The position numbers and the translations under genes were made by a program. Below are positions 3,239 through 64,000 of a stretch of 64,000 bases of DNA, in pieces. Source of the DNA: Pontibacter sp. G13. GTDB taxonomy: Bacteria > Bacteroidota > Bacteroidia > J057. The stretch covers positions 4,670,501 to 4,734,500 of the forward strand of contig NZ_CP134696.1 of the NCBI RefSeq assembly GCF_031851795.1. Reading direction: 5' to 3'. Numbering within the stretch: position 1 is the stretch's first letter; each line of letters opens with the position of its first letter. A model generated the notes under the pieces. It saw only the letters and a program-made list of their open reading frames with translations, searched no databases and had not been told where the DNA came from.

Positions 3239-3257
3239 TGGCTATTTCTTTCATTTT

Positions 3258-3422
3258 GGGGGTGCCCCGGCGTGCTTGGCAATTGTGCTTGAGCTTGAGT
3301 TGATTCTCGCCGGGTCGGGCTTTTCCAGGGGTCCGCTGGCGCTTCCGTCCTCCGCTGAAGGCTCCGGACCTCGCCCAAAGGCTCGCCCTTCCGATCCCTC
3401 ACCCCACACAAGCCAGCCACAC
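3258..3422 (+). repeat. structured intergenic repeat, copy 1 (type A)
   Basis: 165 bp. It starts at GGGGGTGCCCCGGCGTGCTT and ends at CAGCCACAC. It contains the family's 7-bp stem CCCGGCG / CGCCGGG around a 36-nt loop, then the TCCGTCCTCCGCTGAAGGCT block. Same length as copy 2 and nearly identical to it. It sits 19 bp after the terminator at 3203-3238, in the same orientation as the upstream operon. A short reading frame through it is not considered a gene. Confidence 0.85.
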
Positions 3423-5815: not shown

Positions 5816-5980
5816 GTGCGGCTGGTCCGTGTGGGGTGAGGGATCGGAAGGGCGAGCCTTCAGGCGAGGTCCGGAGCCATCAGCGGAGGACGGGAGCGCC
5901 AGCGTACCCCTGGAAAAGCCCGACCCGGCGAGATTCAATCCAAGCCCTAGCACAATTGCCAAGCACGCCGGGGCACCCCC
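5816..5980 (-). repeat. structured intergenic repeat, copy 2 (type A)
   Basis: 165 bp in reverse orientation, GTGCGGCTGG at the left and GGGGCACCCCC at the right. It is very similar to copy 1 over its whole length, including the 7-bp stem and the TCAGCGGAGGACGGGAGCGC block. It lies between the hydrolase gene and the partial copy 3. Confidence 0.85.
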
Positions 5981-6053
5981 AAAGGTTTATCAATTTACCC
6001 AAAATTGAAGGTATATCAGATCGCCTATGGACCTAACCAGCGCCCGGTTCGTA

Positions 6054-6075
6054 GGGACACCTCTTGTGGGTGTCC
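6054..6075. repeat. short inverted repeat between repeat copies 2 and 3
   Basis: GGACACC / GGTGTCC, 7-bp arms around TCTTGTG. It has no T-run and no gene next to it that it would terminate. Confidence 0.4.
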
Positions 6076-6086
6076 AATAATTTGGC

Positions 6087-6145
6087 GACCCGGCGAGATT
6101 CAATCCAAGCGCTAGCACAATTGCCAAGCACGCCGGGGCACCCCC
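6087..6145 (-). repeat. structured intergenic repeat, copy 3 (partial)
   Basis: 59 bp that differ from the matching end of copy 2 by a single base. Only the part with the CCCGGCG / CGCCGGG stem is present; the other half is missing. This points to a recent local duplication of the stem module. The next 235 bp, up to 6380, hold only a 66-codon frame without recognisable features, and no gene is called there. Confidence 0.8.
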
Positions 6146-6380
6146 AAATGATCATCATCATTACATGCAAGAAGGGACCATCTTCATACGAAGACGGCCC
6201 CAAAAGACTCGTTCTTACAAGAGCGAATTGAGTGGAATGAGTGTGAAAGCCCAGGTGGTAATCCTAGAAAGCAGGGCTAGTGACTGCCGCACCATTAGCG
6301 CAGCCGATATCTCATTACATCAGAACAAGTCCAAACCTGAATACTTGGGTGTGTTCAAAACGTGATACAGAAGGAACTCC

Positions 6381-16855: not shown

Positions 16856-16870
16856 TGAGACGCAAGGTAT

Positions 16871-17094
16871 GGGCGTATCCCGGCGTGCTGGGTGTCGATT
16901 TGCTGCTGGGCATGTGATTCGCCGGGCCGGGCTGATCCATGGGTTCGCTGCGCTCCGTCCTCGATACGGGGATTTTCGCACTTGAGCGCCATCGTTCATC
17001 CATTTCGCTGTTTCCGTTTACTTCCTCGATCTATCTCGGACTGCTCCTGACGTCGCACCATTCCCATCCCTTACGCCGCACGTATCAGCCGCAC
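16871..17094 (+). repeat. structured intergenic repeat, copy 4 (type A, enlarged)
   Basis: 224 bp from GGGCGTATCCCGGCG to CAGCCGCAC. The CCCGGCG / CGCCGGG stem is intact. The central GTCC...GGAC module is about 60 bp longer than in copies 1, 2 and 6. It follows a terminator in the same orientation. The rest of the 16.80-17.24 kb gap contains no gene. Confidence 0.8.
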
Positions 17095-17235: not shown

Positions 17236-18717
17236 ATGATGAAGCAATTGCGCCTGACTTTCGGATTGCTGATGCTTGGTTTGACCACAGTCTCCCTCAC
17301 GGCTCAAGACCGTCACAAAATCGAAGTGGAGATTGCTGGATTTACCGGGTCGGAAGCATATCTGGGGTATTATCTCGCCGACAAGACCTACCTGCTCGAC
17401 ACAGCCGCTGTCGAAGACGGAAAATTCGTATTCCAAGGGGACGACCCATTGGACAAAGGGATGTACCTCGTGGTATTTCCACCTGAGAACAACTATTTCG
17501 AGGTCGTGATAGACAAGGACCAGACATTCTCCGTGTCGACTTCCTATCCCGAATTCGTCAAAAACATGAAGGTCAAGGGCTCCAAGGAAAACCAAGTCAT
17601 GTACGATGACCTTCACTTCTTGGATGAACAACGCCAAACTGCGATCGCTCTTCAGGCCGATCTGGAAGGCTTGGAGGAAGGCTCCGAGGCCCATACCGCC
17701 ATCTCCGAGCAATTGGCGGCGATCAGCAATGAAGTAGAAGATTACCGCAACAATTTCATCGCCGAAGATCCTGAGATGCTTTACGCCAAGATGCTCACGT
17801 CCCTCAAGCAGGTGGACGTACCAGAATCTCCCGTGGATGAAAACGGCGAAGAAATCGACCCGAGCTTCCGTTTCCGATACTATCGCGACCACTTCTTTGA
17901 CTATGTGGATTTCACGGATGATCGCCTCCTGCGCACCCCTATCCTGTTCGACAAGGTCAAAACCTACTTCGAAAAGCTCGTGATGAAGCACCCTGACTCC
18001 ATCATCGCACAGATCGATCCCATCATCGAAAAGGCTGGAGACAATTTCGAAGTGTACCAGAACCTCGTCGTGCATTTCACCAACCAATATGCGACCTCCA
18101 AGATCATGGGCATGGATGCTGTCTATGTACACATGGTCGAGCAGTACTACATGCACGAGGAAAAGACGCCTTGGGTAGATGAGGAGCAGCGCAAAAAGAT
18201 GAGAGATCGCGCATATGCGACCTCCAAGACCATTCTTGGTCGCCCAGCACCTGATTTCTCCGTGAAGGACATCAATGGCGATACCCAATCCGTTCATGGA
18301 ATTGAGGCGGAATACACGCTCCTGTATTTTTGGGATTATGATTGCGGCCACTGCAAGACCATTACCCCCAAGTTGAGCGAGGCGCTGAAAGACTACTCCG
18401 AGTACGATATCAAGCTCATGTCCGTCAACATCAACGGCGATGAGACTGTCTGGAAGGAGCGCGTGAAGAAATACGAGCTGGATCAGGATTTCATGATCCC
18501 AACCCACGATGCGTATCGGACCAGTGGTTTCGACCAGTTGTACGATATCCGCTCTACGCCACGATTGTTCATCCTCGACAAGGACAAGAAGATCGTAGCC
18601 AAGCAGATCTCCGTGGAGAGTATGCGCGAGATTTTGGATTCCATGCTCGGCATCGAGCGCCCAGCGGAGCCTGAGTCTGAAAATGCGAGCGAAGAGAGTG
18701 AATCTGCTGGTCATTAG
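17236..18717 (+). CDS. TlpA-like thiol-disulfide protein with DUF4369-like N-terminus
   Basis: 493 residues, exported (signal peptide about 1-23). The N-terminal beta domain (about 27-115; AYLGYYLADKTYLLDTAAV, FVFQGDDPLDKGMYLVVF) is DUF4369-like. A helical middle (about 120-330) resembles DUF5106. The C-terminal AhpC/TSA-thioredoxin domain (about 334-475) carries the active-site pair CGHC at 370-373 in YFWDYDCGHCKTITPKL and the cis-Pro region STPRLFILDKDKK. It probably acts in periplasmic thiol-disulfide exchange; the partner is unknown. It is the first of three tandem homologues. Its C-terminal half and its terminator have a close copy in the next gene. Confidence 0.9.
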   Translation: MMKQLRLTFGLLMLGLTTVSLTAQDRHKIEVEIAGFTGSEAYLGYYLADKTYLLDTAAVEDGKFVFQGDDPLDKGMYLVVFPPENNYFEVVIDKDQTFSVSTSYPEFVKNMKVKGSKENQVMYDDLHFLDEQRQTAIALQADLEGLEEGSEAHTAISEQLAAISNEVEDYRNNFIAEDPEMLYAKMLTSLKQVDVPESPVDENGEEIDPSFRFRYYRDHFFDYVDFTDDRLLRTPILFDKVKTYFEKLVMKHPDSIIAQIDPIIEKAGDNFEVYQNLVVHFTNQYATSKIMGMDAVYVHMVEQYYMHEEKTPWVDEEQRKKMRDRAYATSKTILGRPAPDFSVKDINGDTQSVHGIEAEYTLLYFWDYDCGHCKTITPKLSEALKDYSEYDIKLMSVNINGDETVWKERVKKYELDQDFMIPTHDAYRTSGFDQLYDIRSTPRLFILDKDKKIVAKQISVESMREILDSMLGIERPAEPESENASEESESAGH

Positions 18718-18737
18718 ACCGTTTTCACTTCTATCAC

Positions 18738-18776
18738 ATCGGGCGAGGTTCTAGCGAATCTCGCCCGATTTCTTTT
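18738..18776 (+). terminator. terminator of the first TlpA-like gene
   Basis: Perfect 10-bp stem ATCGGGCGAG / CTCGCCCGAT with a 12-nt loop, then TTCTTTTG. The same hairpin, with one mismatch, follows the next gene. Confidence 0.85.
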
Positions 18777-18851
18777 GCGGGGTTGAAGAAACTTGGGTAG
18801 TTTCTAGACAGGATGGCGGTTTTCTCAGCTTTCCGACCTTTCAACTGTAAG

Positions 18852-19514
18852 ATGCTTATGTTTAGACCTATCACAACCATAGTAGGGGTGTCCCTCCTAC
18901 TCTTTGGCGCAATTACCTCATGTGCCCAGTCTCATCCCGGTCCTCAGGAACCTGAGGCTGCCTCCTCCTTGAATGCTCAGGCTCCCTTCCATAAAGGGAT
19001 CATCACCCTAGAACGACCTCCAGACCCAAAACTCGGGGAGTTGGCACCTGATTTTTCGATCATCGATATGGATGGAGTCCCCCAATCGGTTCATGGGATT
19101 GAGGCCACCTACACTTTGCTGTATTTCTGGGATTATGAATGTAAGCGCAGTATGTCCTTCGCACCATTGCTTACTGCAGCATTGGAGGATTACAAAGCAT
19201 ACGATATCAAGCTCATGTCCGTCAACATCAATGGCGATGAGACTGTCTGGAAGGAGCGCGTGAAGGCACTCAAGTTAGATCAGGATTATATGGTTCCGCT
19301 TCACGACCCGTATCTTAAGAGTGGTTTCGCCCAGTTGTACGCTATTCTCTCTACGCCACGATTGTTCATCCTCGACAAGGACAAGAAGCTAGTAGCCAGA
19401 TGGATCTCCGTGGAGATGATGCGCGAAATTTTGGACCATGAGCTCGGCATCGAGCGCCCAGCAGAGCCTGAGTCTGAAAATGCGAGCGAAGAGGTTAAGT
19501 CTGCCGGCCAGTAG
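18852..19514 (+). CDS. truncated TlpA-like lipoprotein paralog without CxxC
   Basis: 220 residues from the Met at 18852 (the frame opens at 18813). The N-terminus is a lipoprotein signal with lipobox ITSC (Cys24). A short linker leads straight to the thioredoxin-like domain; the DUF4369-like and helical parts of its neighbours are missing. From QSVHGIEA to the end it is nearly a copy of the preceding protein, including the tail GIERPAEPESENASEE. The active-site pair is lost: DYDCGHCKTI in the neighbour corresponds to DYECKRSMSF here. Redox catalysis is therefore unlikely. Partial duplication including the terminator, followed by change centred on the active site, explains this. It may have a binding role or be decaying, although the frame is intact. 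Confidence 0.85.
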   Translation: MLMFRPITTIVGVSLLLFGAITSCAQSHPGPQEPEAASSLNAQAPFHKGIITLERPPDPKLGELAPDFSIIDMDGVPQSVHGIEATYTLLYFWDYECKRSMSFAPLLTAALEDYKAYDIKLMSVNINGDETVWKERVKALKLDQDYMVPLHDPYLKSGFAQLYAILSTPRLFILDKDKKLVARWISVEMMREILDHELGIERPAEPESENASEEVKSAGQ

Positions 19515-19536
19515 GCCATATCACTCCCTTCAACAA

Positions 19537-19577
19537 CATCGGACGAGGTTCTAGCGAATCTCGCCCGATTCCTTTTT
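19537..19577 (+). terminator. terminator of the truncated TlpA paralog
   Basis: ATCGGACGAG / CTCGCCCGAT, 10-bp stem with one mismatch and the same 12-nt loop as the terminator at 18738, followed by TCCTTTTTCGG. It was evidently duplicated together with the gene end. Confidence 0.8.
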
Positions 19578-19634
19578 CGGGGTTGTGGGGAAATTGGTAT
19601 CTTGGCTTTCCGAAAATTGAACCAATTAGCTGAC

Positions 19635-22604: not shown

Positions 22605-22763
22605 GTGCGGCTGGTAGGTGAGGCGTGAAGGATGGGAACGGTGCGAGGCACGAGCAGTCCGGAGCCCTCAGCGGAGGACGGAGCTTGCGAACCCGTGGAC
22701 AGCCTGACTCGGCGAAAAGGCTGCCAGTCAGGGATCTGAGTCCAGGCACGCCGAGGCACGCCC
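22605..22763 (-). repeat. structured intergenic repeat, copy 5 (type A)
   Basis: 159 bp in reverse orientation. The 7-bp stem reads CTCGGCG / CGCCGAG, a compensated change from the usual CCCGGCG / CGCCGGG. It lies directly behind the terminator of the minus-strand cytochrome gene, in the same orientation as that gene. Confidence 0.85.
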
Positions 22764-22774
22764 AAAACCATCTC

Positions 22775-24491: not shown

Positions 24492-24520
24492 GGTGGCAAA
24501 AGACATAAGGACCAATGAGG

Positions 24521-24800
24521 TTGTAGGTACTTGAGACCGTGGCGTCCACAAGGGAGTGCCATTACGGTAGAATAGGGAAGTATGAATCGAGCCGTTGTAG
24601 GTGCTTGAGACCGTGGCGTCCACAAGGGAGCAACGCCATTACGGTAGAATGGGAAAGTATGAATCGAGCCGTTGTAGGTGCTTGAGACCGTGGCGTCCAC
24701 AAGGGAGCGCCATTACGGTAGAATGGGAAAGTATGAATCGAGCCGTTGTAGGTGCTTGAGACCGTGGCGTCCACAAGGGAGCGCCACTACAGTAGAATGA
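24521..24800. repeat. tandem repeat, four units of about 74 bp
   Basis: Units start with GTTGTAGGT at 24521, 24594, 24671 and 24745, so the periods are 73, 77 and 74 bp. The 77-bp period comes from a 3-bp insertion. Each unit holds two small inverted repeats, GTGG-CGT-CCAC and CCATT-ACGGTAG-AATGG; the second is changed in the last unit. The unit length is not a multiple of three and there are no unique spacers, so it is neither a coding repeat nor a CRISPR. Short minus-strand frames through it are by-products. The rest of 24.80-24.99 kb shows nothing. Confidence 0.9.
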
Positions 24801-24994
24801 GGAGGTTGGGAGACGGGTACAGGATTTAGGGCTAGCGGGTATGGGGACATTATCTTATCTTGGATGGGAAGTCGCAAGTTTGCCTGCAAGGAACGGTGTA
24901 AAGAACTTCCCACTTCTCTGTACCACATTCCAGACCCATTCGTAACTTGTGGGACGGAAACCACTTGGCTCCTTTCTGACCTTTATCTACCGAA

Positions 24995-27208: not shown

Positions 27209-27216
27209 ATAGGGTT

Positions 27217-27379
27217 GGGCGTGCCTCGGCGTGTTTGGCATGTAGAGTGCCTTTTGGCAGACCGGTCGCCGAGTCAGGCTGTTCATGGGTTCGCTTTGCT
27301 CCGTCCTCCGCTGAAGGCTCCGGACTGCTCGCGAGCTCGCACCATTCCCATCCTTCACGCCGCCGCAGGCCATCCGCAC
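27217..27379 (+). repeat. structured intergenic repeat, copy 6 (type A)
   Basis: 163 bp from GGGCGTGCCTCGGCGTG to GGCCATCCGCAC. The stem is CTCGGCG / CGCCGAG, as in copy 5, i.e. compensated relative to the other copies. A perfect 10-bp palindrome GCGAGCTCGC lies in the right half. It follows a terminator, co-oriented with the upstream gene. Confidence 0.85.
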
Positions 27380-31902: not shown

Positions 31903-31945
31903 AAAAGCGCCACTCCAGATCTTGGGGTGGCGCTTTTGGGTTTTT
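31903..31945 (+). terminator. terminator of the DUF6029-Omp28 unit
   Basis: Perfect 11-bp stem AAAAGCGCCAC / GTGGCGCTTTT followed by GGGTTTTT. It directly abuts repeat copy 7. Confidence 0.9.
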
Positions 31946-32160
31946 GGGGGTGTCCCGGCGTGCTTGGCAGATGGGATGTCGCTGGGCATCCATGTCGCCG
32001 GGCCGCTCCCATTCCGGGCTCGCTGGTCGCTCGGTCGGTGGAAAATGATACATGCTTGAACAGGTACCCTCCCCCTGGGTGGATGGTGGATACTGCAAAA
32101 GTCAGCTCACCCACCGACTGAACCCTCCAGGCAGCTCACCCCACACGGGGCCATCCGCAC
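31946..32160 (+). repeat. structured intergenic repeat, copy 7 (type B, long loop)
   Basis: 215 bp from GGGGGTGTCCCGGCG to GGCCATCCGCAC. The CCCGGCG / CGCCGGG stem is present. The central hairpin has GTCGGTGG / CCACCGAC arms around about 70 nt that are unlike the other copies. The right end (CCTCCAGGCA and onwards) matches copies 8 and 9. It sits directly behind a terminator and 8 bp from the end of the minus-strand regulator gene. Confidence 0.8.
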
Positions 32161-56610: not shown

Positions 56611-56793
56611 GTGCGGATGGCCCGCGGGGCGTAAAGTGCCTGAAGTGGCCCCCGTTAGGGGGAGTCTCTGATCAGGAGGTGGCGATCTCTCGCCTCCTGA
56701 TCGGAGACCGAGCGCCAGCGAGCACGCAAGGGACTGACCCGGCGACATTCCTGCCAAGCATGGAACCTCAATTCTTCCCGCCGGGATACGCCC
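56611..56793 (-). repeat. structured intergenic repeat, copy 8 (type B)
   Basis: 183 bp in reverse orientation (GTGCGGATGGCC at left, GGGATACGCCC at right). It has the CCCGGCG / CGCCGGG stem and a 45-nt hairpin at 56664-56708 with arms GATCAGGAGG / CCTCCTGATC plus outer GTCTC / GAGAC. A second small stem CCCCC / GGGGG lies beside it. Co-oriented with and 26 bp behind the minus-strand BNR-repeat gene. Confidence 0.85.
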
Positions 56794-56818
56794 ACCTGCC
56801 TCCGATGCCAAGCCTCGG

Positions 56819-59395
56819 CTAATGCTTCGTCCAGACTTCGCTTAGCTGCACCTCATCTGCCAGGAGTCGGACGATATATCGCCCATCGGCCCATTGACTG
56901 GCAGGGATGTTCAGTTGCTCGCGCTCTAAGCTGGGCCTTGGGTGTGGAGATTGATAGACACTCCGACCTTGCATGTCCAGCACTTCGATCTGATAAGTCG
57001 GCGCTGAAATCCCCGTCAGTTCGATATGAAGTTGATCGCCCCCCGGATTCGGGAAGAGCGTCATGCGGTTGACGACCTGCAATGGGGGGCCGACCGATAC
57101 CACTTCCTGCTGCATGGGATATTGGAAAACGCCCCGACCATGCGTGGCGACCCGTACCTTGCGGTTGGCCTCGGAATAGCTGAGATCCATCACAAACAAG
57201 GGTTCCTCAAATCCAATCGTCAGATCCTGCCACGATTGCCCGCCGTTGTCGGAGAAGAATAGGCCGAGATCGCATCCGGCATACACATGCCCGGAATGCA
57301 TGGGGTCGAGCAATACGGCATTGAAAGGGACATCAGGCAAGCCGGTGGAAATGTCACTCCATGTCTGGCCGCCATTGGAAGATTCGAAGATATGCGAAGT
57401 CCCAAATCCGCCCAATGCCGCCACGAGATACTGGTCATCCGTCTCCGAAACCGCGAAATCCAAGGTCACACGATCTGGAAGCCCCGCTTGAATGGAGGTC
57501 CAAGTGACTCCGCCATTGGTGGTTTTGAGGACATTGGCAGATCCGTCGATGGTGATGTCGCCCATGTATCCTTCTTGCAAAGGCGTGGTGGAAATGTACA
57601 CCTTGTCGCAATCCTGATGAGAAATGGCCATGGCCACGGGCTTCCGCCCCTGATCGACCTGTCCACCTGATACCGGGAAGCTAGAAGTCCCGAAGTTGGT
57701 GGATTTGTGGATGGTATCGGCCCCGCCATACACGATGGATGGGTCGGTGGGACACACAACAAATGGCGCGATGAAAGCCGCATGCAAGGATGTGCGACCC
57801 GGGAAACCCACTGATAACCAGTTGAACGACTGGGCTTTGTTGGTGGATAGCGCAATCCGCAACCAGTAAACGCTGCCGTACACACGGTTGTCATCATTGG
57901 GGTCCACCCAGTTGAAAGCTCCATCTCCGCCAATCTGCCGTCGCCAAGCCACATCTCCTTCGTAGATGGCTGTGGCATTGTCCTGCAAGCCGCCGATGAA
58001 GAAGAGGGAATCCTGCTGAGAATTGGAGGTGCCGGGATAAAACTGAGTGGTCTGGTACCCACCGTTGGCTCCGGTGAAGGTTTCGCCATTGTCATAACTG
58101 ACGAATACGCCGCCATCTGTCGCGAAATACACCACATTGTGGTTGTCTGGACTACGCTGAATATCGTGGATATCTGCATGTACATAATCGGCAGGACCTT
58201 CTGGTCCGCCCACGGGAGTGGCATCGAATGACCAATTGTACCAATAGGATTTTTGGGTGAGGGAATTGGTCATGGTGGAGTACTTGAGCACATTGGTACC
58301 AGCCACGATGACATCAAATGGGTCGATGGGATTCACACTCAAATCATGGGCAAACCAGCCATAGGTGTAGGAGAATCCGCCTCTGGGAGCCCACATGGTT
58401 CCAAAATTCGTGGAGGCGTACAATTCCTCCGCGCTGTTCTGTGCGTAGCCGACTCCGGCGTACACGATGTCAGGATTGGAGGGCGACATCGCCAGCATGG
58501 TCTTGCCGATGAAGGTCGGGAAGGTGGAATTCTGCGACCAATTCTGTCCGCCGTCTACCGATTTGTAAAGCCCGCTTTGTGGATGTTGCAAGTTGCCCGC
58601 TGCGAATAGCATGCTGTCGCTATTCATGGGGTGGATCACGAGATCGGTCACAAGAGGTACGGTCGAAATCTGTGTCCAAGTCAAACCGCTATTGGTGGTC
58701 TGGTAAACTCCATGACTTGTCCCTGCGAAAAGGATGGTTGGATCTTTCGGGTGGAACTTCAGGACATTGATCCCGCGCATTTCCTCCATCATCCAGTCGA
58801 GCGACGGGGCCCAGGTCTGGCCTCCATCCGTGGTTTTCAGGATACCGATTCCATACGTGCCACGCGTTCGCCAGTGCATCCCATTGGAACTGGTATGCCG
58901 ATGGTTGTAGATCTCCCCGGTTCCGATGTACATGGTGTTGCTATCGGTCGGATGAATGGCGATGGCAGAGACCGCGATTACTGGATAACCAGTCGGAACG
59001 GGTTCCCATGCTTGTGCGCCGACTCCTGCGGTCTCACTTTTCCAGAGTCCTCCGCCGGCACTGCCTGCGTAAAGGGTCTGCGAATTCTGGGGATTGAATG
59101 CCAAGGCAAGCGTCCGCCCTCCGAAGTTTTTGGGGCCGAGCTCTTCCCAGCCTGCGGGCACTGATGCGGCCATTTTGGATGCTCCCGTCATGGCGCGTTT
59201 CTGGTTCCAAGCTCGTGAGATGGCACCGGCGGGGATTTCCTCAAAGGGATATGCCCGATGTTGGTACCAGTAGTCGAGCGATCTGGCTGCCCCCGACGGT
59301 TTGAAGGCATGGCGGCTCCGGTGGAAGTGTTGGGTGGACCAAATCATGAGACCGATGCTGCCCAAAAGCATCGAAGCGTAGATCAGTCTTTTCAT
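56819..59395 (-). CDS. secreted BNR-repeat (sialidase/VPS10-like propeller) protein with T9SS tail
   Basis: 858 residues with an N-terminal signal or anchor (about 4-21). About ten copies of the BNR/Asp-box type recur: KTTDGGQTWAP, QTTNSGLTWTQ, KSVDGGQNWSQ, VSYDNGETFTG, KTTNGGVTWTS, ESSNGGQTWSD, FSDNGGQSWQD. They form a large two-propeller region (about 85-770) like those of sortilin-type or xyloglucanase-type proteins. Catalytic residues of a glycosidase cannot be assigned. The last 80 residues are a type IX sorting domain (TLFPNPGGDQLHIEL ... GRYIVRLLADEVQ). Probably displayed or released outside the cell. Confidence 0.88.
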   Translation of the reverse strand: MKRLIYASMLLGSIGLMIWSTQHFHRSRHAFKPSGAARSLDYWYQHRAYPFEEIPAGAISRAWNQKRAMTGASKMAASVPAGWEELGPKNFGGRTLALAFNPQNSQTLYAGSAGGGLWKSETAGVGAQAWEPVPTGYPVIAVSAIAIHPTDSNTMYIGTGEIYNHRHTSSNGMHWRTRGTYGIGILKTTDGGQTWAPSLDWMMEEMRGINVLKFHPKDPTILFAGTSHGVYQTTNSGLTWTQISTVPLVTDLVIHPMNSDSMLFAAGNLQHPQSGLYKSVDGGQNWSQNSTFPTFIGKTMLAMSPSNPDIVYAGVGYAQNSAEELYASTNFGTMWAPRGGFSYTYGWFAHDLSVNPIDPFDVIVAGTNVLKYSTMTNSLTQKSYWYNWSFDATPVGGPEGPADYVHADIHDIQRSPDNHNVVYFATDGGVFVSYDNGETFTGANGGYQTTQFYPGTSNSQQDSLFFIGGLQDNATAIYEGDVAWRRQIGGDGAFNWVDPNDDNRVYGSVYWLRIALSTNKAQSFNWLSVGFPGRTSLHAAFIAPFVVCPTDPSIVYGGADTIHKSTNFGTSSFPVSGGQVDQGRKPVAMAISHQDCDKVYISTTPLQEGYMGDITIDGSANVLKTTNGGVTWTSIQAGLPDRVTLDFAVSETDDQYLVAALGGFGTSHIFESSNGGQTWSDISTGLPDVPFNAVLLDPMHSGHVYAGCDLGLFFSDNGGQSWQDLTIGFEEPLFVMDLSYSEANRKVRVATHGRGVFQYPMQQEVVSVGPPLQVVNRMTLFPNPGGDQLHIELTGISAPTYQIEVLDMQGRSVYQSPHPRPSLEREQLNIPASQWADGRYIVRLLADEVQLSEVWTKH

Positions 59396-59616
59396 CGTGA
59401 TGAGTTGAAAGTTGAGGATTGAAATCAGGAAATAGCAAAGTCAAAAAAACTATCCAGTTCGGTAGCCATTTACAGGTTTGGCAATCAATGTGGAGGATAA
59501 GTTATTCAATCACGGCAAATGTTTAGGGGATAAATATGTACCTCAATTTCTTGGTTGTGGGCAAACGGTTTTCTTCACCGGGGCACCTACGAGGGGATGC
59601 GCCCTACATGGGATTT

Positions 59617-59800
59617 GGGCGTATCCCGGCGTGCTGGGGATCTGATGCGCTCTTGAAGATGCCGGTCGCCGGGTCAGTCCCTTTCGTGCTCGCTGGCGCT
59701 CGGTCGCAGATCTGGGGGCGAGAGATCGCCGCCCCCAGATCTGCGACTCCCCCTGACGGGGGCCACTCCAGGCACTTTACGCCCCGCGGGCCATCCGCAC
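59617..59800 (+). repeat. structured intergenic repeat, copy 9 (type B)
   Basis: 184 bp from GGGCGTATCCCGGCGTGCTG to GGGCCATCCGCAC. CCCGGCG / CGCCGGG stem, then a perfect 18-bp hairpin at 59703-59747 (GTCGCAGATCTGGGGGCG and its complement, 9-nt loop) and a CCCCC / GGGGG stem. This is the only copy not lying behind a co-oriented gene. The rest of 59396-59900 holds no gene. Confidence 0.85.
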
Positions 59801-59900: not shown

Positions 59901-62900
59901 TTATTCTCCGATTACGATATCTGAAGCCCGGGTCCAAGATCTGTATTCTGGGGTGTAGTACAGATAGGCATTCGAAGCCGGAGAAGCATACGTCCCCGGA
60001 GCTTCGGCTTTCAGATCAAAGTGGATGGTACGGGACTCTCCCGCCATGAAGTGCCGGAAGTACAGGATCACCTCGTGTCCGCGCACCTCCAAGAAATCCA
60101 CCTGTTCCTCTTTTACCAATTCCTTCAATTGCCAAGGCTGAGCACTCAATCCGCCCGGAATGCCGATGATGGCGATAGGGCTGGGCACTGCGGCGTCAGT
60201 CAGATTTTGGATCGAGCAACTCAAGCGGACGGTTTCGCCCATCTTGGCAGTAGACCTAGCCAGCTCGGTTTTGAGGTCCAATGCACAGGCAGATTGGGAG
60301 ACGGGCTTGGGCTGACTGTATTGAACCGACAACGTGTAGGGGAGGGGATTCCCATCGGCATAGACCACTTCCATGCGTTGACTTCCCGGCTGGAGATATT
60401 CTTCCAGTCCCTTCATGACGATAGGCTCATTGCTGCCCGCCTCGTAGGAGATGGACTTGACCGTTTCGCCATTTACTTTGATCAAAATTTGTCCGTCGGT
60501 TTCTGTTCGGCGATCATATTCCTCAAACATGATCAAGGACCGGAGCGCCAGCACAGTGGCATTGGTGGAGCCATAGTATCCTGCTCCACTCTTTTTGGCC
60601 CGAATTTCGGCGATGAGCCTTTTGACCAATGGACGGAACTGGTTGTCTCCTGCCTTCATCATGGCCATAGCTGCTAGCGCATTGGCTTCTACCGTCAAGG
60701 AGATTCCCGAAGAACCGGGCGCAGAACGATAGGAAGCGGTATGCACCAAACTGGGTTGCTCGGTTTGTTGTTGCATGAGGATACTGAGCAATTGGACAGC
60801 CTCGTCTTTTCGTCCGAAATTCATCAGGGTATTGGCCGCCAAGGCAAGCTCGTAGGGGGCACGAGATTGTTGAGCCTGGCGAGCGCTGTAAGCCACCTCT
60901 TTCTCCAAATCCGTAAAGCCAGCCTCAGAAAGCGCATAGGTGATGTACAAGCTCATGGTCTCATTGTTGGTCAGGCCGAAACTATGCAAGGCACGGCTAT
61001 TCCGCATGAATGCGCCCTTTCCATCTCGGCGGGACATCAGCCATTCGGTGGTGCGATCGATCATCTGCTGGCTGACTTTTGGGTAGACCTTTTGCATGTC
61101 GATAAATTCCAGCAATCCATAAGCCGTCAGCCCCTCATGCCCATCGCCTCGTCCAAACCATTCGTAGCCCCCGCTTCCACATTCGAAGCTGGTCAATCGC
61201 TTGTATCCCTTGTCAATCAACCCCAATGCACGTTTGCGGATACCGGGCTTGTCTTGCTTGGTGGCCTCAAGGTATTGGAGCACCAAGATGTTGGGATACG
61301 TGCTCGAAGAGGTCTGCTCAAAACACCCATGAGGCTCCCGGAGCATGCCCTCAAGTCCTGTCATGATCTCGCCCGTGACATCAGGGAAGGCGATGAAATT
61401 GGCTTTGATCGAGCTCGGAAAGGCCTCCGTGAGATCTAGCATTCCGACTTGATTGCGCTCGGTACCCGCCAAGGTCCAAGATTGAGGATAACCGAGATCG
61501 CCTAGTTGGATCGTCTGCTTCATCTCATCTGAATGCCCTTTGGACTGAACGGACAGGTAGATGGATGCCTCGCCAGATCTGCCGGTCACAACTACGGGAA
61601 GGTACTTGGAAAGGGACGTGCGGGCGGGTAGATCTATCGCGCCGGAGACATTGCCTAGTGCCATCAGACCGGGGGACAGTACTGCCGTATATTTCGCCTT
61701 GGTACCACGATGCTGATGGTTGTGGAAGGTCATGGGAATCATGAGCGTATCCCGCAACATGGCTTCCGCTGGAATCTTGGCCGTCAGGGCCACAGGCAAT
61801 TGACTGTAAATCTTCTGAGTTCCTCGCCCTACATCTCCTTGGGCACTGATCCCTTCTGCGGTGATCTGGAAGGAGGAGATGGCATCGGACGTGTAGAAGG
61901 AGAGTGTGGTGTATCCCGAAGCGGGGACATTCACTCGGCCATTCCAGTACAAAGTGGTACGGAAATCATTGCGCGCTTCTCGCTCGGAGGTGTAGGCATG
62001 ATCCGGCCCTGAGAACTGACGTGCTCGATAGTATCGGGTCGTTTGGGTTGGCGCAGCAGCTTGGAGAGAGGCTACTGGCAGAACAGGCGCTCCATCCAGC
62101 AATTTGAAGGCCCAAGGAATATTCACCCAGTATTGGATGGGTCGGCCACCCTGTACCGCCGGACTAAACTTCAAGCTCATGATATGCTTATCTATCTCGC
62201 TGGTAAGGATTGGGTGGACGGTGCGCACATGCTTATGCTTCTTGTATTGTCCGTTTTTGTCGATCAGGATTCTGGTGACTACCGTGCCTTCGATCCCGGC
62301 ATCCCGCGCAACCTTCGGATAGCCGATATTGCGACGAATCTCATCCAGATTGAGGGGGCGTGGCTCCTCTTCCGCAAAGATGAATTCATCCATTCGAGGG
62401 ACTTTTTGCCATTCGACATCTTCACTTTGAACCACGTGGACCACTTCTTCTTCCTCGTCATCCATTTCCATCTCGGGGATGTCCTCTGCGATTTCGAAGT
62501 CATCTTCCGCAGGCGCATCTACCAGAAGCTCTTTGGCCATCACTCCGTCGATGAAGAAAGCATTGTTATCGGCTCTAGCTCCACGAAGCTCCACATGGTT
62601 TGCTTCCACCATTTCAGCTGGCGGTGGAGGGGGAGGAAGAAGCTCCTCATCTACCTCTGCCATTTCATCCTCGACCATTTCGGGCCTAGCTGCTTGATCA
62701 ATGGGAATCACAACAGGCTGATTATTGGCGGTCGGTCTTGCTGGTTGTACAGCATCCCCTGCCCCCGCTTGTGGGTCATTGGGAATACCGGGAGCCGCGG
62801 CCACGATATTTCGATTCTGTCGCTTGGCCATTTTCTTGATGGATTTCCGCTGGCGATTGGCTCCTGCGACCACTACTTCTTCGAGCACCATTGTATTGGG

Positions 62901-64000
62901 CGCCATCGTAATTTGTAGTTCATTTTGGGACAAATCCGTGAATCGGGCGGTCTCATATCCGAGGTAATTCACTGCGAAAGACGATACTGGTGCAGCAAGG
63001 GAGATATTGAAGTTTCCGTCAAAATCTGTCGCAACTCCCGAGACAACCTCATTATTCGGTCCATAGAACACGACCGTAGCGCCAATCAGGGCTTCCCCTG
63101 TTTCTTCATCGGAGATATTGCCTTTGAAATAGTACTCCTTTCGGAAGTTGATGTCAGAGCCATATTCGTGGACGACTTGGCTTCTGTAGGCCCCGTCCTC
63201 AAAATACGCCTGAAGGGTTGCCGGTTGATAAAGGTCTAGATCACGGATGGAATAAGCTCCCACTGAATCAGCTTCGTAGGATTGTCCCGTCTCCAATACC
63301 TTGAGGGAAGCAAAAGGAACTGGATTGCCTTGAGCGTCGAGTACCAATCCAGACACCTCCCGCTGTTCTGCTATTTGCTTGATTCCGGGCAAATGGTCAG
63401 CCGTAATCTCCTCCCATGTAAATCTCCTCCAGCCATGTGTGAGCATCACAAGATCACGCGCTGGAACGGCTTTTTCTTCGGTTTTGTCAAAGTAGAAGTA
63501 GGGCTCTTGAATGTCTCCGCGGAGGTCTGCGCCCATCAAAAGCCAAGAGAGAATGTTGTGGGATTTGTCATCGGCAAAAGTCAAGATCTGGTCATCAGTT
63601 ACGGCTACGGACAGCTGGGCGGGAAGCGGTCTTCCCAAATAGTCAGATACGCTCACGGTCATGTTCACTTCCTCACGGGGGAGGTATCGCTCTTTGTCGG
63701 TTTCGATTTCCACCTGCATGGCACGGTCGGCATTCACGAAGGCGAGACGCTCGGCACGGGCCACGCCGCGGCCATCAAACAAGGTGAATTGTACCACCCC
63801 GGTCGGAAACTCTGTGGGGTCTAGGTCAATCTCCGTGACACCGGGATCTACCTCGTATTCGGATGCGAAATAGACCTCTCCACGCATCATGCCCACGAGG
63901 TGTAATTTGTCCTCGAAACTACTCTGCAATTGAATGCGAATTCGGTGCTCATCGGCTTCCAATACTCGGAGTCCCCAGCCACGCTTCAATGGCTTTGGCA
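59901..64000 (-). CDS. alpha-2-macroglobulin-like protein with inserted carboxypeptidase-regulatory and TonB C-terminal domains, partial
   Basis: The gene leaves the right edge; at least 1362 residues are visible (numbered from 63989) and the true start is outside. In order: the end of a macroglobulin MG region (about 30-130; TDKERYLPREEVNMTVSVSD); two carboxypeptidase-regulatory-like beta domains (about 213-275 and 290-370; EALIGATVVFYGPNNE, ATDFDGNFNI); a segment resembling a TonB-receptor plug (NHVELRGARADNNAFFIDGV, about 466-485) in a Pro- and acid-rich linker; a TonB C-terminal domain (about 543-640; YPKVARDAGIEGTVVTRILI); then the A2M complement-like part with the thioester-type motif CFEQ at 889-892 in PHGCFEQTSS, a helical thioester domain (about 880-1200) and a receptor-like C-terminus. 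It probably traps proteases or acts at the outer membrane. Confidence 0.88.
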   Translation of the reverse strand, partial: PKPLKRGWGLRVLEADEHRIRIQLQSSFEDKLHLVGMMRGEVYFASEYEVDPGVTEIDLDPTEFPTGVVQFTLFDGRGVARAERLAFVNADRAMQVEIETDKERYLPREEVNMTVSVSDYLGRPLPAQLSVAVTDDQILTFADDKSHNILSWLLMGADLRGDIQEPYFYFDKTEEKAVPARDLVMLTHGWRRFTWEEITADHLPGIKQIAEQREVSGLVLDAQGNPVPFASLKVLETGQSYEADSVGAYSIRDLDLYQPATLQAYFEDGAYRSQVVHEYGSDINFRKEYYFKGNISDEETGEALIGATVVFYGPNNEVVSGVATDFDGNFNISLAAPVSSFAVNYLGYETARFTDLSQNELQITMAPNTMVLEEVVVAGANRQRKSIKKMAKRQNRNIVAAAPGIPNDPQAGAGDAVQPARPTANNQPVVIPIDQAARPEMVEDEMAEVDEELLPPPPPPAEMVEANHVELRGARADNNAFFIDGVMAKELLVDAPAEDDFEIAEDIPEMEMDDEEEEVVHVVQSEDVEWQKVPRMDEFIFAEEEPRPLNLDEIRRNIGYPKVARDAGIEGTVVTRILIDKNGQYKKHKHVRTVHPILTSEIDKHIMSLKFSPAVQGGRPIQYWVNIPWAFKLLDGAPVLPVASLQAAAPTQTTRYYRARQFSGPDHAYTSEREARNDFRTTLYWNGRVNVPASGYTTLSFYTSDAISSFQITAEGISAQGDVGRGTQKIYSQLPVALTAKIPAEAMLRDTLMIPMTFHNHQHRGTKAKYTAVLSPGLMALGNVSGAIDLPARTSLSKYLPVVVTGRSGEASIYLSVQSKGHSDEMKQTIQLGDLGYPQSWTLAGTERNQVGMLDLTEAFPSSIKANFIAFPDVTGEIMTGLEGMLREPHGCFEQTSSSTYPNILVLQYLEATKQDKPGIRKRALGLIDKGYKRLTSFECGSGGYEWFGRGDGHEGLTAYGLLEFIDMQKVYPKVSQQMIDRTTEWLMSRRDGKGAFMRNSRALHSFGLTNNETMSLYITYALSEAGFTDLEKEVAYSARQAQQSRAPYELALAANTLMNFGRKDEAVQLLSILMQQQTEQPSLVHTASYRSAPGSSGISLTVEANALAAMAMMKAGDNQFRPLVKRLIAEIRAKKSGAGYYGSTNATVLALRSLIMFEEYDRRTETDGQILIKVNGETVKSISYEAGSNEPIVMKGLEEYLQPGSQRMEVVYADGNPLPYTLSVQYSQPKPVSQSACALDLKTELARSTAKMGETVRLSCSIQNLTDAAVPSPIAIIGIPGGLSAQPWQLKELVKEEQVDFLEVRGHEVILYFRHFMAGESRTIHFDLKAEAPGTYASPASNAYLYYTPEYRSWTRASDIVIGE

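Follow-up and report, generated by a model that had tools for sequence, protein, structure and literature searches.

A 64,000-nt stretch of the Pontibacter sp. G13 chromosome (the window; 4.67-4.73 Mb of the 7.67 Mb genome G000), whose proteins carry T9SS sorting, PKD, and Ig-like CHU_C domains, contains two 45-nt hairpins with a common loop and different stems. This raises the question of what the hairpins belong to and what has kept them paired. An earlier note had placed them at 56664-56708 and 59703-59747, counted three stem pairs changed on both sides and two uncompensated differences, and ascribed the compensated changes to selection on RNA or single-stranded DNA (ssDNA) structure. Re-reading the sequence bore out the length, the coordinates, the shared loop, and the three two-sided changes (4-42 GC/UA, 11-35 UA/AU, and 14-32 GC/AU). 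Positions 6-40 and 17-29, the two differences taken as uncompensated, give A-C on the strand that was read at the time; the folded strand is the opposite one, and there both are U-G pairs. Written on that strand, the hairpins are GTCTCTGATCAGGAGGTGGCGATCTCTCGCCTCCTGATCGGAGAC (56664-56708, +; 19 bp including two U-G pairs, with a 7-nt loop) and GTCGCAGATCTGGGGGCGGCGATCTCTCGCCCCCAGATCTGCGAC (59703-59747, -). Pairing is retained at all five positions at which they differ, and four of the five differ on both sides.

Both hairpins are helix P4, one arm of a seven-helix dispersed element that we call type B. The copy that holds the first hairpin, B8, is full length (186 nt; 56611-56796, +) and was recovered with nhmmer and with two covariance models, R1 (193 bits) and R2 (99 bits). 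The second copy, B9, spans 187 nt (59614-59800, -; R1 195 bits, R2 97 bits). The ends of the element, GTGCGG and CCCAAA, are not inverted repeats of each other, and the family as a whole measures about 120-230 nt. In B8, the closing helix P1 joins GGCGTA (56628-56633) to TACGCC (56787-56792), which is followed by the conserved CCCAAA-type end. Its strands lie about 155 nt apart, and among copies it appears as GGCGTG/CACGCC, GGCGTA/TACGCC, GGCGCG/CGCGCC, and GGTGTG/CACACC. Within P1 sits P2 (56635-56647 with 56723-56735, strands about 90 nt apart), with a GNA/GNA internal loop whose middle base is free and which is conserved both in type B copies and in other genomes. P3 is a small hairpin (56649-56662) placed by the structure derived on 65 copies, about 24 of which have a tandem G.A there (G.A/A.G at two adjacent pairs). 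P5 (56712-56719) is a two-pair hairpin within the conserved motif GAGCnnnnGCGAG, with changes from GC/GC to AC/GT and GT/AC, while P6 (56738-56785) is a hairpin whose loop, about 36 nt long, evolves fast. All groups have the core GCGTGA...CACGCCCAAA in common, and the leader GTGCGGATGGC was found only in the home-family copies that were read.

How widespread is this element in its home genome? A DNA search gave at least 40 copies at E<1e-29 (230 candidates), and a motif specific to the element had 52 exact matches, against 0 for a reversed-pattern control. We sampled 60 tiles of up to 20 kb around known copies. In 1.24 Mb they contained 69 copies of type B that scored above 100 bits, and a search with R1 put the full-length total over all types at about 134 in 1.25 Mb. 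The copies are largely intergenic, with just 15 of 134 overlapping a long-ORF call. The density of type B is inflated because the tiles were centred on B copies; from the density of the other types we estimate several hundred copies genome-wide. At most B loci the 45-nt hairpin also matched on the opposite strand, but this was the palindrome itself and no second copy.

In the window we count eight full copies plus a partial one. Besides B8 and B9, there are four of type A at 3255-3422 (-; R1 78 bits, R2 73 bits), 5816-5983 (+; 75 and 67 bits), 22605-22766 (+; 72 and 67 bits), and 27214-27379 (-; 84 and 75 bits), and two of type C at 16868-17094 (-; 89 and 65 bits) and 31943-32160 (-; 98 and 76 bits). 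Types A and C have the ends, P1, P2, P5, and P6 in common with type B and differ from it in the P3/P4 region, type C having a large P4 loop of about 75 unconserved nt. The partial copy (6086-6148, +) consists of the 3' (P6) part only and matched a 3'-end profile at 33 bits. Comparable 3'-only copies were seen at locus L095 (8452-8502 and 9446-9519), and each of the three has a full copy of matching orientation about 70-340 nt upstream of it. Two of them have near-identical loops, and the pattern suggests that the 3' part has been duplicated repeatedly around an inserted segment. In several copies a different repeat, about GTAGGGnnCATCCCCTTGTGGGTGCCCC, is inserted next to the P6 loop or within it (window 5984-6085, the flank 59580-59613, and L109 562-774 and 10268-10480). 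Adjacent elements were arranged head-to-head in 11 of 12 pairs with gaps of 9-197 nt (e.g. L080 1926-2321, L090 9644-10066, and L095 3685-4024). This was a feature of G000 alone: close pairs of this kind were not conspicuous among the matches in genomes G059 and G009.

To what extent selection accounts for the pairing can be judged from the alignment of further type B copies, which the earlier note had proposed and which gave significant covariation. The test was R-scape-like, a G-test with APC whose null moved the inferred substitutions along the tree. Across 69 copies, 11 column pairs were significant at E<0.05, all of them with 98-100% standard pairs; P4 accounts for six, P1 and P2 for two each, and P6 for one. 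Over the full structure in 65 copies, 97.2% of cells were paired, compared to 84.2% when shuffled, and two-sided changes occurred at 33 of 47 pairs. For P4, the corresponding figures were 99% of cells paired and two-sided changes at 12 of 19 pairs. The covariation score was 0.355 versus at most 0.058 with slid partners, a control that is partly favourable by construction in that the structure was derived from the same copies. The cells represent sequences rather than events. Outside P3, 49 of the 65 copies had no non-standard pair at all.

A near-perfect long hairpin is a known substrate for template switching and quasi-palindrome correction, and type B P4 is a near-perfect hairpin of 18-19 bp, so the compensations might come from mutation inside the palindrome, with no selection. 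We consider this very improbable. Template switching could compensate P4 only, yet P1 and P2, whose strands are far apart, covary too, and these long-range helices refute it as the sole cause. Such a process would also be strand-symmetric, yet over all helices, with one constant loop pair left out, G-U pairs outnumber A-C pairs 55 to 5 (p 1e-11), and it does not fit with a common fold kept across families of unrelated sequence. The 11-fold excess of G-U over A-C identifies GTGCGG...CCCAAA as the folded strand. Together with the covariation of the long-range helices, it argues for selection on a single strand and against mutation within the palindrome. Selection retains the fold through compensated changes in all main helices, and the structural cause proposed for the two hairpins is thereby supported.

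The same fold is present in several other families of the class Bacteroidia. With R1, the same-family genome G009 gave at least 21 copies and G014, from the same order, gave one. In a class-level search of 395 genomes, with six candidates scored in each and low sensitivity, this model matched in seven genomes including G000. R2 is a broader model; it was built from a CM-fitted alignment and hence leans towards the fold. It gave at least 47 copies in G059, a 2.9 Mb genome, at least 41 in G009, 8 in G020, 6 in G146, 5 in G014, and one or two each in G007, G159, G213, and G347, with zero matches in 26 of 35 genomes. Two-sided changes persist in the copies of other genomes. By DNA search, full-length type B was found in 0 of 40 relatives, G009 having merely a 25-nt match to the 5' end. 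In G059 (L192, L195, L196, and others), the P6 arm is often CCCTGAGCTTGCCGAAGGG, as if repeats had replaced the arm; this arm recalls a REP-like hairpin that occurs in many Bacteroidetes. The element matched no family in Rfam 15, the only scores being sub-threshold chance ones (miRNA, HCV, and sbcD) and a real neighbouring tRNA, and the window as a whole likewise had no match there. Plasmids and phages contained no match, one collection scan returned only scattered single matches in unrelated organisms that we took as chance, and no description of the element was found in the open PMC literature.

Copies have multiplied within genomes and are present or absent between congeners. For three G000 copies that are 97% identical, the downstream flanks are all unrelated; upstream, one flank is unrelated and two share repeat DNA. 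Three G020 copies (L176, L180, and L184) are missing at the matching places of the congener G014, which may reflect either gain or loss; the flanks of L184 match one contiguous stretch there. One copy is common to both congeners; conservation is visibly higher in its core than in its flanks, and its P6 has been replaced by a different, fully paired hairpin. Neither target-site duplication nor pairing between flanks rose above shuffled controls in G059 or G000. The variable loops were also considered as possible guides, but the P6 and P4 loops had no excess match to their own flanks (the control for the P4 loop being crude), and clear matches elsewhere were only partial element copies and an inserted repeat.

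As for the molecule that is acted upon, the GNA/GNA loops and wobble pairs, along with the tandem G.A of P3, favour RNA, with ssDNA being less likely. An element of the REP/RAYT or IS200/IS605 type, cut and joined in trans as folded ssDNA by a Y1 (HUH) transposase, would be consistent with a fold confined to one strand and with the lack of target duplication, and the head-to-head pairs (11 of 12) resemble REP doublets. We nevertheless rate this as improbable. Y1_Tnp (PF01797) is absent from G059, G014, G020, G347, G213, and G159. G000 has two Y1 genes, neither linked to the element, and loci L130 and L131 gave no match with R1; the RAYT-like gene at L131 (G000:C1:5488564-5488794, -), tried as a candidate mobiliser, is flanked by its own, different repeats. 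The architecture is also unlike that of a REP, with 120-230 nt in a multi-branched structure and no GTAG foot, and RNA is the more usual setting for GNA/GNA loops and G-U pairs.

Judged by simple long-ORF gene calls, copies tend to sit just past gene ends. In G000, convergent gaps are enriched (46 of 129 copies against 71 of 369; p 3e-4), while orientation in tandem gaps is even (31 vs 33). In G059, 35 of 39 copies lie behind a gene that faces them, at a median of 20-33 nt from the gene end, with the folded strand antisense to that neighbouring gene. An A-rich stretch follows CCCAAA in this genome, the gene strand has no T-run after the element, and the promoter motif TANNTTTG is not enriched on the folded strand of the flanks (4 vs 19 on the other strand).

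Under the main rival to a mobile element, each copy would act in place at a gene 3' end, for example in mRNA 3'-end formation, termination or stability, or as an antisense RNA, and would be selected by the host, with dispersal being secondary. The enrichment in convergent gaps and the short, fixed-orientation spacing to gene ends in G059 are in keeping with this, as is the conservation of the copy common to G014 and G020 above that of its flanks. So is the contrast between loop and stem. The P6 loop differs by 0.56 between copies compared to 0.21 in the P6 stem, and between the closest B pairs by 0.42, while their stems differ by only 0.03-0.10. Stems that stay paired despite such divergence of the loop imply long retention of the fold, either through use in place or because only fold-competent copies spread; this retention and the common locus could equally mean host function. 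Against it, the even tandem orientation in G000 means that the folded strand is often outside the transcript of the neighbour, and in G059 this strand is antisense to the gene. The three copies missing from the congener and the lack of a T-run on the gene strand also speak against it. We judge host function to be unlikely overall.

Group IIC introns are structured RNAs that insert behind gene ends in a preferred orientation, which the G059 copies recall. A decayed group II intron or other retroelement, spread by target-primed insertion with an A-rich 3' tail and having lost its reverse transcriptase (RT), would also fit with the A-rich stretch after CCCAAA, and with a sharp 3' end at which related copies share their upstream and not their downstream flank. 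However, RVT_1 is absent from G059, G014, G020, G347, and G159, the element is much shorter than such introns, and there was no Rfam match even though Rfam holds group II models. The only RVT_1 match in G000 (L105 4632-6023, -) is a UG17-type defence RT (DRT) that is unlinked to the element and was rejected as its mobiliser. We find this origin more doubtful still than an ssDNA element. Y1_Tnp and RVT_1 are thus largely excluded as mobilisers, and the 1.24 Mb sample contained no autonomous, ORF-bearing version.

On balance, we consider it probable that this is a dispersed structured-RNA element, selected for its fold and spread by machinery acting in trans. In the non-coding element one defined strand (GTGCGG...CCCAAA) takes up a multi-branched fold: P1 closes it and encloses P2, P2 bears the GNA/GNA loop and the hairpins P3, P4, and P5, and P6 and the CACGCCCAAA end come after. 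The element would have spread as a non-autonomous (SINE- or MITE-like) unit. Trans-acting machinery would recognise its folded transcript, or with lower probability a folded ssDNA, and insert it with no target duplication and mostly just beyond gene ends. Type B would be a lineage-specific burst in which P4 has grown to 18-19 bp with a fixed loop. Counting against this reading, no mobilising enzyme, no ORF-bearing version, no target duplication, and no promoter enrichment on the folded strand were found. A further-reaching proposal, which we offer tentatively, is that of an undescribed mobile structured-RNA family across Bacteroidia, its copies per genome numbering in the dozens to hundreds, moved by machinery that is neither Y1 nor a standard RT and that reads the GNA/GNA junction, possibly as a SINE-like RNA. 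The element would represent either a new kind of mobile RNA or a widespread RNA function at gene ends. The fold-conserved repeats usual in bacteria are short palindromes, whereas this is a seven-helix junction with compensation in distant helices that occurs in multiple families and is absent from Rfam 15. With many natural variants in one genome, the structure should be solvable now, and pull-down and comparative work can be aimed directly at a partner protein.

Several known systems share some of these features. REP/BIME/REPIN sequences with their RAYTs are likewise high-copy, intergenic, and conserved in fold, often form head-to-head doublets, and favour convergent gaps and gene ends (PMC3733652). 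They differ in being single palindromes of 20-40 nt with a GTAG or CGTC foot, compared to seven helices over 120-230 nt and no such foot, and their Y1 transposase (PF01797) is missing from several carriers of the element, including G059 with its at least 47 copies. Mobile/repeat sequence candidates (the MRSC class, e.g. MRSC-65-2; PMC11109978) are likewise structured and multi-copy, show covariation, and lack a consistent orientation relative to genes, but MRSC-65-2 forms one long stem containing a UYCCGG repeat, as opposed to seven helices with other conserved sequence. Enterobacterial RU-1, RU-2, and RU-3, described as MITE-like (PMC2759123), are also non-coding, dispersed, intergenic, and 100-170 bp in length; the arms of the element described here, in contrast, are parts of a branched structure formed by one strand, and target duplication was not observed. 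Unlike a MITE, this element has neither terminal inverted repeats nor a target-site duplication (G059 and G000). Miniature elements derived from IS200/IS605 resemble it in their single folded strand and lack of target duplication, and differ in architecture and in the Y1 transposase, which most of the searched carriers do not have.

Three other features of the window were observed in passing. The region 59901-63890 (-) encodes an unusual fusion of carboxypeptidase-regulatory-like and TonB C-terminal domains with an alpha-2-macroglobulin TED domain. Neighbouring ORFs contain duplicated segments at 18247-18785 and 19044-19585 that are about 79% identical, and at 24520-24806 a unit of about 74 bp is repeated in tandem, its copies being about 94% identical.
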